Assembly: GCA_902777605.1 (NCBI GenBank)
Contig: CACYUI010000015.1
Span: forward strand, 1 to 64,000
Length of the DNA: 64,000 nucleotides
Direction: 5' to 3'
DNA from: an uncultured bacterium
GTDB taxonomy: Bacteria; Cyanobacteriota; Vampirovibrionia; Gastranaerophilales; Gastranaerophilaceae
Shown here: piece by piece, positions 731-6,384 of the stretch
Layout of the letters: each line of letters begins with the position of its first letter
How positions within the stretch are numbered: position 1 is the stretch's first letter
Notes under the pieces: generated by a model
What the model saw: only the letters and a program-made list of their open reading frames with translations
Told to the model about the DNA's origin: nothing
Database searches by the model: none
Made by a program: the position numbers and the translations under genes

Positions 731-1876
731 ATGATAAACTTACTTCCCTCTACAAACATTAAATTTTATGGTAATATGTGGCTTAAGAGATTCGGAGTAT
801 TTATGAACTATTCAAACCTGTTTGATTGGGCAAGAGATTTTTATACCTCATTTTCTTATAACGACAGATGGGGCAAAGCAAAGATGCCATTAAGATATTT
901 TTTGGAGCTTACTTACAGGTGTAATTTGAATTGTCCGTACTGTTATGTTGGGTGTGACAGAAACAAAAATGAACTTTCAACCGATGAGTGGAGAAAAGTT
1001 ATTGATCAGCTTCCTTTCTATTCTCTTGTTACACTTGTTGGCGGTGAACCTCTTCTGAGAAGCGATTTTGTTGATATTTTGGCTTATTGTTCTAAAAAAG
1101 TAATGAATAAAGTCCATGTTGTTTCAAACGGGATTTTAATTAATGATGAAATTATTGATGCGTTTATCAAGTACAAACTTTTACTATTATCGGTTTCTCT
1201 TGATGGGTTTGGAAAAACGCATGATCATAATAGAGGGAAAGAAGGAGTTTTTGATAAGGTTATTTCAAATCTTGAAAACTTAAAATCAAAAAAGAAAAAA
1301 CAAATGGTTGATATCAAGACAATAGTTTTGGAAAATAATCTTGATGATTTGCCAAAACTATATAAACTATGCTCTGATATGGGATTTGAGTTTTTATCAA
1401 TTTCATTTTTGAGAAACAACAATTGGAAACAGAGTTCAATATTGCAAGAAAGTTTTATTCCTGAATTTAACGAAAATTATCCCATAAAACTTTATTTTGA
1501 TATTGAGCATTTTAAAGAAGTTTATAAAGAAATTGAGGGAATGGGAGGTAAAACAAAGCTGAGATTTTCACCAAAATTTGAGTATTCAAAAAATCCTTTG
1601 GAATCTATTGAAAAATTCTTTAAACTACCTGAGAGCACAGAGGTGCAAAATATTTATACTCCTTGCAAATTCCCGTATAACAATACTTTTATAAACCCTG
1701 AAGGCTATATTTACCCCTGCTTATCCCAAAGAATGGGTAATGTTAAAGAAAAAAAGATTAAGGAAATCTTTAATACTCCGCATTATTGTTGTTTTAGAAA
1801 AAACTTGAAAGCAAACGGCGGAGTTTTTGGCGCTTGTCAGATGTGCTGTGAGCTTGGTATCAAAGAAGTTTTATAA
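731..1876 (+). CDS. Radical SAM/SPASM domain protein
   Basis: A 381-residue radical SAM enzyme. The cluster-binding CNLNCPYC motif lies at residues 64-71 and a glycine-rich LVGGEPLL strand follows, as expected for S-adenosylmethionine binding. The C-terminal part carries a SPASM/twitch-like set of cysteines (PCKFPY, PCLS, HYCCF, CQMCC) that would hold auxiliary iron-sulfur clusters. Such enzymes modify peptides, install cofactors or act in cell-surface chemistry; the substrate cannot be read from sequence. A GATGAGG ribosome site supports the start, although later Met codons remain possible. It converges on bioA with a six-base overlap. No precursor peptide, transporter or partner enzyme sits beside it. 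Confidence 0.8.
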   Translation: MINLLPSTNIKFYGNMWLKRFGVFMNYSNLFDWARDFYTSFSYNDRWGKAKMPLRYFLELTYRCNLNCPYCYVGCDRNKNELSTDEWRKVIDQLPFYSLVTLVGGEPLLRSDFVDILAYCSKKVMNKVHVVSNGILINDEIIDAFIKYKLLLLSVSLDGFGKTHDHNRGKEGVFDKVISNLENLKSKKKKQMVDIKTIVLENNLDDLPKLYKLCSDMGFEFLSISFLRNNNWKQSSILQESFIPEFNENYPIKLYFDIEHFKEVYKEIEGMGGKTKLRFSPKFEYSKNPLESIEKFFKLPESTEVQNIYTPCKFPYNNTFINPEGYIYPCLSQRMGNVKEKKIKEIFNTPHYCCFRKNLKANGGVFGACQMCCELGIKEVL

Positions 1877-3214
1877 ATTTAGTATTTCTTTTGTGCATTC
1901 AAGCGCAATATCGGTTACCAAATCCATGTCTTCTTTTTCTATAATCAGCGGTGGATTAAAATAAATAACATCGCCTAAAGGTCTTAGGATAACTCCTTTT
2001 TCAAGCGCTTTTTTGTATATTTGATACCCTGTCCTTTTTTTGTAATCAAGAGGTTCTTTTGTTTCTTTGTTTTTAACAAGTTCTATTGCGTTTATAAGAC
2101 CTATGGAACGAACTTCGCCAACATTTTTAAGCGGTAAAAACTTTTCTTTAATAATTTTATTGAAATATTTTCCCTTTTCTTGAGCTTTTTCTATGATTTT
2201 TTCGTCTTTTAAAATGTTCAAAACTTCAATAGCTGCAGAACAAGCGAGAGGATTTCCCGAATAAGTATGAGAATGCATAAAAGCTTTTCCCTTCATATAA
2301 TCGTCATAAAAAGCATCGTAGATTTTTTGTGTAGTTATAGCGATAGCCATCGGCATGTAACCTCCCGTTAAACCTTTTGAAATACACATTATGTCAGGAG
2401 ATACGCCTGCATGGTTGAAAGCCCACATCTTTCCTGTTCTTCCGTATCCTGTTGCAATTTCGTCAGCTATAAGATGTACATTGTATTTGTCACACAGTTC
2501 TCTCAATTTTTTGAGATACAAAGGCGGATAAACTTTCATGCCGGCTGAACCCTGAAGCAAGGGTTCTACTATTATTGCGGCAGTTTCATCTGCATGTTTT
2601 GCGAAAGCTTCTTCTGCCTTTACAAAACATTCGCAATTACAATTATCTCTGCATTTACCAAAAGGACATCTGTAACAATCCAGTCCTTCAATTCTGATAA
2701 CATCCATCATCAAAGGTTTGTACATTTCAGAATACAAATCGACTCCGCCAACAGCAAGCGCACCCAAAGTTTCACCATGGTATGCATCGGCAAGCGCCAT
2801 AAAACGAGTTTTCTTAGGGTTTCCTGTTTGAAGATGGTATTGAAAACTCATCTTTAAAGCCATTTCTACCGCAGCGGAACCGTTATCGGCAAAATTGAAT
2901 TTGCATAAACCTTTTGGTAAAACCTCCATAAGCTTTTGGCAGAGTGTAATTGCGGTTTTGTGCGTAAAATTAGCGAATATAACATGCTCTAAACTATCAA
3001 CTTGTTTTTTTATTGCACTATTTATTCTTGGATTGCAATGTCCTAAGAGGTTGCACCACCATGAACTTATGACATCTTTATAACACTTTCCGTTAATATC
3101 ATACAGATTAATTCCTTCCCCTCTTTCAATAACAATAGGAGGAAGTGTTTCATAATCCTTCATTTGTGAGCACGGATGCCATATATATTTTAAATCTTCT
3201 TCTTGCCAATTCAT
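1871..3214 (-). CDS. bioA: Adenosylmethionine-8-amino-7-oxononanoate aminotransferase
   Basis: A 447-residue PLP aminotransferase of biotin synthesis, converting KAPA to DAPA with S-adenosylmethionine as amino donor. The family opening WHPCSQMKDYE is at residues 12-22. The cofactor-binding DEIATGYGRTGK stretch is near 251-262 and the Schiff-base lysine is in ISKGLTGGY (about K280). A cysteine-rich insertion (CYRCPFGKCRDNCNCEC, about 180-196) is present, as in several low-GC lineages. A GGGAGA ribosome site stands eight bases before the ATG. It lies downstream of the PurD-like gene on the same strand and may share its transcript. bioD is 26 kb away, so the biotin genes are dispersed. Confidence 0.95.
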   Translation of the reverse strand: MNWQEEDLKYIWHPCSQMKDYETLPPIVIERGEGINLYDINGKCYKDVISSWWCNLLGHCNPRINSAIKKQVDSLEHVIFANFTHKTAITLCQKLMEVLPKGLCKFNFADNGSAAVEMALKMSFQYHLQTGNPKKTRFMALADAYHGETLGALAVGGVDLYSEMYKPLMMDVIRIEGLDCYRCPFGKCRDNCNCECFVKAEEAFAKHADETAAIIVEPLLQGSAGMKVYPPLYLKKLRELCDKYNVHLIADEIATGYGRTGKMWAFNHAGVSPDIMCISKGLTGGYMPMAIAITTQKIYDAFYDDYMKGKAFMHSHTYSGNPLACSAAIEVLNILKDEKIIEKAQEKGKYFNKIIKEKFLPLKNVGEVRSIGLINAIELVKNKETKEPLDYKKRTGYQIYKKALEKGVILRPLGDVIYFNPPLIIEKEDMDLVTDIALECTKEILNL

Positions 3215-3280: not shown

Positions 3281-4072
3281 CTATTTTATTTCATTCAATT
3301 TTTGGTATATTGCAAGTTGTAAAATGTATAGAAAATCGAGTTCGCAATTTGGTTTCAGGAGTTCAAAACTAAAGCCGGTGTTGTATAATATTCCGTTTTC
3401 TTCAATTAGATATGAATTAATAAATCCAATAAAATCAGCCTTTTCTCCTCTTAATAATCGTTCAAGTTTTGAGGAATATTCTTCTAAAAGCGCGGGCATA
3501 AAATTTTTATCAGGGAATGTATAAATTGAATTTCCGTCAAAAAGTGATGTAACAATGTGCTTTTTGTTATGCAAAAATTCTTCTAAATAAACAGTTTTGG
3601 CAATTTCAGGCGAAGTTTCAAAAATTTCTTTTTTTATAGATATAATTTCTTGTAAAGAATTAGCTTTTCTTAAAATTCCGTCTGCTTTAACTAGAACAGG
3701 AAATTCTTGCGGCAAGAGTGTTTGAGGCGGAATATTAATACCGTATTTCGTAAGAAGCGAGTTTGCAAAACTGTTATATAATGCCAAATTTGTCCAATAA
3801 GATGTCGGAGCAAAACAGTTTATGTAGTTTTTGCGCATAACATCTGCAATACCTTCTAAAATCCACTTTTCTTCTTCTACTAGAACAATATCTATTTGAA
3901 GCGCCCTGCATTTTTCGCAAAGTTCTTGAAAAGTATTAAAATTAATTGTAATTGCTCCCTCTTGTTCGGTATCGGATGTCGTGTATAACTTTCTCAAATA
4001 CTTTGAGCTTTTTATATATTCAAGGTATTTGCTTGAATTTTTACATACAATAAGAATATTTAATGATTGCAT
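3281..4072 (-). CDS. Degenerate PurD-like (GAR synthetase-like) protein
   Basis: Starting at the Met at 4072 this encodes 263 residues. A GGAGG site nine bases upstream, embedded in the end of the preceding gene, supports that start over one 24 bases earlier. The middle part resembles PurD: WILEGIADVMRKN followed by a CFAPTS/KYGIN stretch matches the region where PurD has its fixed GPxKxxAxLEgSKxFxKxxMxxxGIP block, then a VLVKADG strand. It is far shorter than true PurD (about 420 residues) and many ATP-grasp residues look lost. It overlaps the PurN-like gene by 13 bases. I infer a repurposed or regulatory paralogue, not the working enzyme of purine synthesis. Confidence 0.5.
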   Translation of the reverse strand: MQSLNILIVCKNSSKYLEYIKSSKYLRKLYTTSDTEQEGAITINFNTFQELCEKCRALQIDIVLVEEEKWILEGIADVMRKNYINCFAPTSYWTNLALYNSFANSLLTKYGINIPPQTLLPQEFPVLVKADGILRKANSLQEIISIKKEIFETSPEIAKTVYLEEFLHNKKHIVTSLFDGNSIYTFPDKNFMPALLEEYSSKLERLLRGEKADFIGFINSYLIEENGILYNTGFSFELLKPNCELDFLYILQLAIYQKLNEIK

Positions 4073-4533
4073 CCCGAACAACCTCCGGAACAACAAGAAG
4101 ATTTTCCTAATAATGTTTTGATTTCAAACTGCTCATTGTCAATTATTTTTTCTGCAACAAGCGGGTATATGGTTTGCTCTAAATAATTTAATTCTTGTTT
4201 CAAAGTTTCCCAACGCATATCAGATGTAATAAAAACAGGATATTGAGCAATAATGCTTTCATTGTGAGATATTGTAATCCCTGTAACTTTAACTCCTTTT
4301 AGTATAGCTTCTTTTTCAGGCTCATTGCAATTAAAAGCCGGTAATAAAGAATGATGACATTTGAGATGGTTAAACCGGCATGGATTATTGTAATTAACTA
4401 ACAATACGAGTTCATGTTTTTCATTAATCTGATTTTCATCTTTGTAACATTCAATATCATAATTTTTAAGTTGATACTTGATAGCATCAATCGTTGGCGA
4501 GTATTCTGAATATAGAATAGCTAAATTTTTCAT
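4060..4533 (-). CDS. Degenerate PurN-like protein with Cys-rich tail
   Basis: 157 residues resembling phosphoribosylglycinamide formyltransferase: HHSLLPAF followed by EKEAILKGVKVTGITIS and SIIAQYPVF. In PurN the motif NIHPSLLP supplies catalytic Asn and His; here it reads KCHHSLLP, so the Asn is replaced. The catalytic Asp of DxGPIIxQ is missing too (HNESIIAQ). The C-terminus ends SSCCSGGCSGCNH, a likely metal or cluster-binding tail not found in PurN. It is sandwiched between the phosphoesterase (five bases upstream) and the PurD-like gene (overlap). Homology by eye is fair; transformylase activity is unlikely. Confidence 0.55.
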   Translation of the reverse strand: MKNLAILYSEYSPTIDAIKYQLKNYDIECYKDENQINEKHELVLLVNYNNPCRFNHLKCHHSLLPAFNCNEPEKEAILKGVKVTGITISHNESIIAQYPVFITSDMRWETLKQELNYLEQTIYPLVAEKIIDNEQFEIKTLLGKSSCCSGGCSGCNH

Positions 4534-4538
4534 TATTA

Positions 4539-5282
4539 CTAAAAATGTCTTTCTTTAGGATTAATTAATGTTGCTGCGAGTCGTTCTTTTCCTATAAAAT
4601 TGCGCCCATTTAATTTCTCAGCAGCTTTTTCGTTATCATATTTTATCAAATGATGTTCATATAGTGTTTTTCCGTCTTCTATTGTTATTGTAAGATAACA
4701 CGATTTAGGTTCTGAAGTAAAAGGTCTGCCGACACTTCCTACATTAACAACTGTTTTCTTGCTCTCTGTTTGAAACCCGCATGGAATATGTGTGTGTCCG
4801 CAAAGAACCACATTGGCGTCAACATGTTTTAGCATTTCATCAAGTTCTGCAAAAGAAGTGTCAGGAAGTATATCTTCATTATTTTTTCTTGGCGAACCGT
4901 GAACGAGCAGCATTGTAATTCCTTGTTCAAATACTTCAAGCTGCATAGGAAGTTCTTTTAAAAACTTTTTTTGTGGCTCAGACAAAACAGATACATCATC
5001 TTTTAGGGCTTCTGCCATAACAGGAGCCTTGTCTTTAAGGCTATTATATAATTCTTCGCTATAATCAGCTATCATTAAATCTGTATTGCCTTGAATCATT
5101 TTATAAGCAGGATCATCTTTCTTTTTCATAAAAAAGTCTACAACTTTATTAGGCTCCGGCCCTGCCATTGCATAATCTCCTAAAACAAAAATTTTATCGC
5201 ATTTTTGTTCTTTAATATCTTGAAGAACAGCATCTAAAGCTTCAACATTTCCATGAATATCAGAAATTACTGCAATTTTCAT
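4539..5282 (-). CDS. YfcE-type metallophosphoesterase
   Basis: A 247-residue calcineurin-like phosphoesterase. Metal-binding motifs appear in order: SDIHGN at the N-terminus (D8, H10), LGDYAMAGP, QGNTD, LVHGSPR and CGHTHIP. This is the YfcE/MJ0936 class, which hydrolyses phosphodiesters with Mn or similar metals; the natural substrate is unknown. The start at 5282 is preferred over 5321 because it places the first motif at the usual position and has AGAGG seven bases upstream. It heads a probable operon with the PurN-like and PurD-like genes and is divergent from ispG, the two starts being only 37 bases apart. Confidence 0.85.
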   Translation of the reverse strand: MKIAVISDIHGNVEALDAVLQDIKEQKCDKIFVLGDYAMAGPEPNKVVDFFMKKKDDPAYKMIQGNTDLMIADYSEELYNSLKDKAPVMAEALKDDVSVLSEPQKKFLKELPMQLEVFEQGITMLLVHGSPRKNNEDILPDTSFAELDEMLKHVDANVVLCGHTHIPCGFQTESKKTVVNVGSVGRPFTSEPKSCYLTITIEDGKTLYEHHLIKYDNEKAAEKLNGRNFIGKERLAATLINPKERHF

Positions 5283-5304
5283 ATAAACCTCTTTTCTTTT
5301 GTTA

Positions 5305-5313
5305 TGGTACAAT
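5305..5313 (+). promoter_or_regulatory. Extended -10 promoter, leaderless ispG
   Basis: TGGTACAAT is followed by exactly six bases and the ispG ATG at 5320. With the hexamer at -12 to -7 the A of ATG falls at +1. No Shine-Dalgarno sequence precedes the ATG. Confidence 0.6.
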
Positions 5314-5319
5314 ATTACC

Positions 5320-6384
5320 ATGATTATAAGAAGAAAATCTAAACAAATTTCAATAGGTAATATAAAAATTGGCGGTGATGCGCCAATTAGTGTTCAATCG
5401 ATGTGCAATACCGATACAAGAAATGTCGCAAAAACGCTTGATCAAATTAGTGAGCTTGCATCTGCAGGATGTGAAATTGTGCGTCTTGCCGTATTAAATA
5501 AAGATGCGGCTTCGGCAATAAAAGATATTGTTGCAAAATCACCGGTGCCATTGGTTGCGGATATACATTTTGATTACCGTCTTGCACTAACTTGTATAGA
5601 AAACGGAATTCATGCTCTAAGAATTAATCCAGGAAATATCGGTAGAAGAGAACACACAATCAAAGTTGTAGAAGCTGCAAAAAGCCACAATATTCCGATA
5701 AGAATAGGTATTAACGGCGGTTCTTTGGAAAAAGAGTTTGCAGTGCTGGATTTACCGCTTCACGAAAAAATGGTTAAGAGTGCGCTAAGACATATAGAAA
5801 TTTTAGAAGACTTGAATTTTTATGACACAAAAATTTCACTAAAATCATCAGATGTATTAACAACGATTGAAGCCTATAAATTAATGGCAGAAAAAGTAGA
5901 TTATCCGCTGCATATCGGGGTTACGGAAGCTGGGACTTTAAAATCGGGATTAATAAAATCATCTGTAGGAATTGGCTCTCTTTTAAGCCAAGGAATTGGT
6001 GATACAATAAGAGTTTCTTTGACAGAAAACCCTGTGGAAGAAGTCCATGCCGGATACGGAATACTTAAATCTTTGGGACTCAGAGAAAAAGGGATTAACT
6101 TTATATCATGCCCTACATGCGGCAGAACTCAGATAGATTTGATTGGTTTAGCAAAACAAGTTGAAGAAAAATTTAAAAATCTAAATATTCCTATAACTAT
6201 TGCAGTTATGGGGTGTCCCGTAAATGGCCCCGGAGAAGCAAGACATGCCGATTTTGGAATTGCAGGGGCAATTGGAGAAGGATATATTTTCAAAAAAGGT
6301 GAAATAATTGCAAGAGTCCCAGAAGCTGACTTGATTAATTCATTAGAAAATATTATAATGAAAACATATAGTGAAGTTAAATAA
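5320..6384 (+). CDS. ispG: 4-hydroxy-3-methylbut-2-en-1-yl diphosphate synthase
   Basis: 354 residues of the IspG/GcpE family, which converts MEcPP to HMBPP with a [4Fe-4S] cluster in the non-mevalonate isoprenoid pathway. The opening IIRRKSKQISIGNIKIGG-APISVQSMCNTDT is characteristic. The cluster ligands are in ISCPTCGRTQ and MGCPVNGPGEA near the C-terminus. The protein has the short bacterial form without the plant/chlamydial insert. The start at 5320 matches the family N-terminus and coincides with the predicted +1. The small exported-protein gene follows 11 bases after the stop and probably shares the transcript. Confidence 0.95.
   Translation: MIIRRKSKQISIGNIKIGGDAPISVQSMCNTDTRNVAKTLDQISELASAGCEIVRLAVLNKDAASAIKDIVAKSPVPLVADIHFDYRLALTCIENGIHALRINPGNIGRREHTIKVVEAAKSHNIPIRIGINGGSLEKEFAVLDLPLHEKMVKSALRHIEILEDLNFYDTKISLKSSDVLTTIEAYKLMAEKVDYPLHIGVTEAGTLKSGLIKSSVGIGSLLSQGIGDTIRVSLTENPVEEVHAGYGILKSLGLREKGINFISCPTCGRTQIDLIGLAKQVEEKFKNLNIPITIAVMGCPVNGPGEARHADFGIAGAIGEGYIFKKGEIIARVPEADLINSLENIIMKTYSEVK

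Follow-up and report, generated by a model that had tools for sequence, protein, structure and literature searches.

The window, the whole 64,000-nucleotide stretch analysed, carries on its minus strand two overlapping genes whose products resemble PurN and PurD, consecutive enzymes of purine synthesis. The genes and features of the locus are as follows.

1871–3214, minus strand: bioA-like aminotransferase, downstream of the pair, in a neighbourhood that is not conserved
3281–4072, minus strand: PurD-like pseudoenzyme gene (263 aa from ATG 4072), retaining the N and ATP-grasp core and missing GGREH, the GKG flap, the NTGG loop, NxRxGDPE and the C domain
4060–4072, minus strand: 13 nt in which the end of the PurN-like frame overlaps the beginning of the PurD-like frame, with putative translational coupling
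4060–4533, minus strand: PurN-like pseudoenzyme gene (157 aa), retaining the core and missing the GAR/phosphate loop, the central ~30 residues, the folate loop and the catalytic Asp loop
4063–4095, minus strand: Cys-rich C-terminal tail of the PurN-like protein (CCSGGCSGCNH), unstructured in the structure model
4082–4086, minus strand: GGAGG motif formed by the tail's Gly-Gly codons, likely the ribosome binding site of the PurD-like gene, 14 nt before ATG 4072
4539–5321, minus strand: YfcE-type metallophosphoesterase, 5 nt upstream of the pair

The PurN-like protein shares with PurN (TIGR00639; Formyl_trans_N, PF00551) a homologous core, the fold, the place in the operon and His60, but is shorter (157 aa against ~195–205 aa) and lacks the GSNxE, AGYMR folate and Asp loops. 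The Pfam domain Formyl_trans_N covers its C-terminal half (E 1.2e-7), and its score against TIGR00639, 29 bits, does not reach the curated cut-off of 150.1. A preliminary description of this DNA, which had reported the overlap of the two genes correctly, also stated that the Asn and Asp of PurN are gone, and this is confirmed: N-I-H-P-S-L-L-P is replaced by K-C-H-H-S-L-L-P and DxGxII by HNESII. The catalytic positions (Asn, His and Asp; N106, H108 and D144 in E. coli numbering) are occupied by Lys and His (H60) or deleted, leaving the histidine alone. By motif scoring, all 26 truncated PurN-like proteins lack the GSNxE loop, ~30 central residues, the AGYMR loop and the Asp loop, and most retain His60; that of G001 is a fragment without the N-terminal half. 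The regular expressions used score NIHH (G022, G034, G046) and NIHY (G049) as lost, although Asn is present there, and overlook single-letter variants in G131, G195 and G061.

The longest reading frame of the PurD-like gene encodes 271 aa and is open to TTG 4096, while ATG 4072 is the start preceded by GGAGG. Its product has the N and ATP-grasp fold in common with PurD, or GAR synthetase (TIGR00877; GARS_N, GARS_A, GARS_C), whereas the C domain and the GGREH, GKG, NTGG and NxRxGDPE motifs of PurD are all absent, and it scores 38 bits against TIGR00877 (cut-off 288). A shortfall of about 160 residues had been noted at the outset; this holds against a typical PurD, and the nearest intact PurD, a 396-aa protein from the same genus, is longer by 133 residues. 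Barring scattered single letters, none of the 50 truncated PurD-like proteins compared has the GKG flap, the NTGG loop or NxRxGDPE. Among 74 columns that are near-invariant in 22 intact PurD proteins, 39 are nearly gone from these 50 and 18 are still conserved, including the hinge Glu (E164), so the losses are selective. Just four positions are conserved and yet new relative to intact PurD, which gives little sign of a newly built site.

Structure prediction, proposed in the preliminary description for both proteins, yields confident folds that match those of the parent enzymes. The PurD-like model (pLDDT 95.6) aligns 261 of its 263 residues with the GARS structure 2qk4_B (Z 23.9), and the PurN-like model (pLDDT 89) matches the GART fold in the PDB (3p9x, E 3e-9), with its C-terminal tail at a pLDDT below 50.

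Distribution and loss of purine synthesis

The truncated PurD-like protein occurs in 52 of the 58 genus genomes, at a protein identity of ~30–66%. The PurN-like gene lies directly upstream in 26 of these and is missing in 24; a contig end hides the upstream region in the other two. Five of the remaining six genomes have an intact PurD, which in one case runs off the contig, and one, G006, has none. The count with and without PurN leaves out G016 and G045 (contig ends), G025 (PurD cut) and G006 (no PurD-like match); in G037, too, the PurD-like gene runs into the end of its contig, and genus genomes G175, G178, G311, G355 and G366 occur in a search of 383 genomes (see below) and lie outside the locus counts. 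A profile search of 57 genomes found no truncated PurN-like frame away from the PurD-like gene in the 34 genus genomes among them. Because the PurD-like protein is often alone and the truncated PurN-like protein was never found alone in these 34, the distribution suggests that the former is the core and the latter an accessory. The shared function proposed for the two is thus borne out in part: the pair is kept together in 26 genomes, but the PurD-like protein does without its partner in 24. The PurN-like gene was lost on at least five branches (seven changes on a PurD tree with 50 of the 52 truncated genus rows), and this repeated loss, together with the absence of both genes from G006, indicates that the function is dispensable.

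The gene order glgA-purM-purN-purD is found in G009, G014 and G038. The truncated pair follows glgA in G001, G010, G021, G042, G046, G049 and G055, and the PurD-like gene alone follows it in others, a synteny that identifies the pair as the ancestral glgA-purM-purN-purD operon minus purM. Elsewhere in the genus the pair stays together beside unrelated genes (flagellar switch, pheS-like, dCMP deaminase-like, yfcE), some of these names being readings from sequence alone.

Purine genes were searched in 97 relatives, of which 58 share the window's genus, a member of the Gastranaerophilales. The window's genome contains no true purN, purD, purM, purL or purF, and de novo purine synthesis has therefore been lost from it. 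Of its four Formyl_trans_N matches none is a PurN above the cut-off, and there is one other PurD-like protein, PurD2 (412 aa, 186.5 bits). Across the 58 genus genomes, purL is found in five (G033 adds a weak partial match) and a real purM in four, the remaining purM matches being weak, in frames of ~290–340 aa, and presumably ThiL; purF extends beyond a GlmS-type half in one (G014), the other matches being GlmS-type. Five genomes keep an intact PurD with purL, four of them with purN and four with purM, and even in this intact subgroup the pathway may be shrinking.

A separate true purN or purD elsewhere in the genome, which the preliminary description suggested looking for, does not exist there; the pair is the remnant of the ancestral operon and not a duplicated copy. 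That description had also taken such an absence, combined with intact active sites in relatives, as evidence against a new function. Both are observed, yet the intact relatives strengthen the case, because they are combined with loss of the pathway and with selection on the pair.

Selection, gene overlap and the cysteine tail

The dN/dS ratio is 0.087–0.214 for the PurN-like gene (five close pairs, dS < 0.6) and 0.144–0.235 for the PurD-like gene (four close pairs, dS < 0.4). In each of four tests, none of 1000 neutral simulations under a uniform substitution model had as few amino-acid changes as observed; the clear neutral decay that might have disposed of a retained function is thus not seen. 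GlgA gives 0.016–0.018 in the same pairs, a constraint about 10 times stronger than that on the PurN-like and PurD-like proteins. Both proteins are under purifying selection, below the level of housekeeping constraint. Neither gene has a disrupted frame or evolves neutrally, and both combine homology to an enzyme, loss of catalytic residues, a kept fold and purifying selection. They are accordingly classed as pseudoenzymes, not pseudogenes, and are predicted from their motifs to lack catalytic activity. This agrees with the initial view that they are not pseudogenes, the frames being conserved in many species with dN/dS well below 1, and that catalytic residues were lost jointly from both partners while the operon structure was kept.

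The PurN-like protein ends in SSCCSGGCSGCNH, as originally reported. An alignment of 25 truncated PurN-like rows shows two of the tail cysteines, C152 and C155, in every row and C148 in at least 90%; the tail probably binds a metal, as had been suggested, or a redox partner. A similar Cys tail is found in the intact, catalytic PurN of G004, G009, G014, G038, G071, G131, G295 and G413, and the tail therefore predates the decay; its acquisition by the dead protein is rejected. In most loci a GGAGG-type motif lies in the Gly-Gly codons of the tail, 13–14 nt ahead of the PurD-like start, and the need for a ribosome binding site may keep these codons fixed. The cysteines are kept through both TGT and TGC codons, so the protein sequence of the tail matters too, and the tail is not a ribosome binding site alone.

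These features bear on an unlikely alternative, in which the PurD-like protein alone is functional and the PurN-like gene is retained chiefly as a leader, for its ribosome binding site and for translational coupling. It would explain why the GGAGG-type motif sits where it does, why the PurD-like gene stands alone in 24 of the 50 truncated loci with readable upstream sequence, and why the profile search of 34 genus genomes met no truncated PurN-like frame apart from it. However, the PurN-like gene is itself under purifying selection, at the ratios given above and with no neutral run among 1000 to match; its product folds well and keeps its cysteines through either codon, neither of which a leader needs, and 24 genomes manage without it.

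The YfcE-type and bioA-like neighbours are as first described, yet no yfcE-like gene and no counterpart of the window's bioA adjoins the pair in any of 60 fetched relative loci, which makes these neighbours uninformative. BioA-like genes do occur in G048 and G051, 1.6–3 kb upstream of the PurD-like gene. As neither gene adjoins the pair directly in the 60 loci, yfcE and bioA are rejected as functional partners.

Fusions, parallel decay and a possible non-catalytic role

The search of 383 genomes of the order led to 20 further loci, which were read. In nine of them, which belong to three other genera within the family, a single reading frame of ~570–590 aa encodes both PurN and PurD with intact catalytic motifs (L259–L267; G264, G183, G166, G194, G195, G220, G351, G321, G205). 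Fifteen frames of 572–596 aa were listed, and all nine that were fetched are fusions; Pfam, run on three of the nine, gives Formyl_trans_N, GARS_N, GARS_A and GARS_C. The fusions read have no Cys tail at the end of PurN. The human trifunctional GART is also a fusion, in the order GARS-AIRS-GART, and together with the bacterial forms it shows that PurN and PurD can work joined; both kinds of fusion keep the catalytic motifs, whereas the window's pair does not. The occurrence of fusions in three genera implies that PurN and PurD probably associate.

In 13 of the 20 loci purM adjoins purN-purD, and all 13 have the catalytic motifs, two misses of the regular expressions being single-letter variants. 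Six of the seven loci without purM have a degenerate PurD, and degenerate PurN-PurD pairs are also present in other genera without purM. G217 goes against the pattern, with an intact PurD and no purM or purN within the 5.5 kb read. In a PurD tree built with 22 of the 52 truncated genus rows, the truncated proteins of the genus cluster with the intact PurD of that genus (SH-aLRT 99), and the remaining degenerate forms cluster with the intact G131 (SH-aLRT 95). A single clade of degenerate forms is rejected by the AU test for PurD (p 0.038) and not for PurN (p 0.636; tree with 16 of 26 rows). A single origin of all truncations is thus disfavoured by one tree and allowed by the other; with moderate confidence, truncation probably happened at least twice in the family. 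G151 and G132 are long-branched rows of uncertain placement. Their PurN proteins (L273, L274) are nearly full-length and keep the catalytic Asn, His and Asp, with the GSN and folate loops lost, and the PurD-like proteins beside them have diverged so far that Pfam gives no match at E 0.01.

The reading given about an even chance of being right is that the pair is a retained, non-catalytic PurN-PurD complex. Its genes descend vertically from purN and purD of the glgA-purM-purN-purD locus. Once purF, purL and purM were lost and purine synthesis had ceased, both proteins would have dropped the parts that serve catalysis only, while the folded cores, the adjacency of the genes and the Cys tail stayed. 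PurN and PurD would already have been complexed in their ancestors, as the overlapping genes and the fusions in three other genera suggest, and the complex would also have had a second, non-catalytic job that selection now preserves. The PurD-like ATP-grasp core, in which the hinge Glu (E164) is intact, has probably retained the ability to bind a nucleotide or a partner, and the PurN-like protein would be an accessory subunit contributing the putative metal or redox site of its tail. The pair may thus act as a ligand-sensing or scaffold module. A broader version is offered more tentatively: loss of purine synthesis may have exposed this second function, with both enzymes stripped in parallel at least twice and the complex kept as a regulatory or structural module, alongside dead relatives of PurH and PurD2.

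It is decidedly unlikely that the pair has instead taken up a new chemistry, as an ATP-grasp ligase or a transferase acting on another substrate. The retained ATP-grasp core and hinge Glu of one protein and the formyltransferase core and His60 of the other would fit such an activity, but the GKG flap, the NTGG loop and the metal-ligand motif NxRxGDPE are lost in all 50 PurD-like proteins compared, the Asp loop in all 26 PurN-like proteins, and few PurD-like positions are newly conserved. Slow decay of pseudogenes after loss of the pathway is very improbable and largely refuted. The absence of the pathway, the weaker constraint relative to GlgA and the repeated loss of the PurN-like gene could be read in its favour; against it stand open frames in 52 genomes at the low identities given above, dN/dS values of 0.06–0.24, the neutral simulations, the conservation of the pair across many different neighbourhoods and the confidently modelled PurD-like fold, and it is rejected on dN/dS and the simulations. 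Despite the parental fold and operon order, it is scarcely conceivable that the two continue to act as GAR synthetase and GAR transformylase through an unusual active site, a reading rejected because purF, purL and purM, which would supply or use the intermediates, are absent and the substrate, folate and metal motifs are lost.

On the reading as a retained complex, the parts that selection kept after the loss of catalysis would mark the site of the second function. Two consecutive enzymes of a lost pathway have been hollowed out together and kept across ~50 species, and related genomes contain the intact ancestor, the fused form and what is probably a further round of decay, which makes a hidden non-catalytic job of metabolic enzymes directly testable. 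If true, this would represent a general route from metabolic complexes to non-enzymatic machines. Pseudoenzymes usually accompany an active paralogue, and in the PRPS family the active enzyme is reportedly still present. The window's pair differs from the PRPS-family pseudoenzymes in that the loss extends to the pathway itself and the searches revealed no active paralogue. The pseudoenzyme paralogues of that family (PMC13252144) are reportedly likewise dead relatives of a nucleotide-pathway enzyme kept by selection. Titles and abstracts in the literature yielded no purine pseudoenzymes from Gastranaerophilales or Melainabacteria.

Further remnants of purine enzymes

Matches to PurN, PurD and PurH in these gut bacteria should not be annotated as purine synthesis. 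The purL matches in G038, G025, G009 and G014 are frames of ~505–516 aa, interrupted within the matched region by one or two in-frame stops, and are shorter than the outgroup PurL (~725 aa). PurH has a frame of ~295–336 aa in 53 of the 58 genus genomes and of 228 aa in one more, and gives no match in the other four; outgroup frames have ~500–520 aa. In the 11 PurH-like proteins read (L173:152–1039 on C22 of the window's own genome, and L174–L183), the IMP cyclohydrolase half is missing and KHxNPCG is broken, with KH surviving in one. The shrunken gene directly follows a gene for a penicillin-binding protein, even where purM-purN-purD is kept. PurD2 of the window's genome (L006:5523–6761, on C4) is without GGREH, GKG and NxRxGDPE. 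It is present across the order, and in G058, G063 and G071, of which G063 lacks purM, it divergently adjoins a full-length purH.
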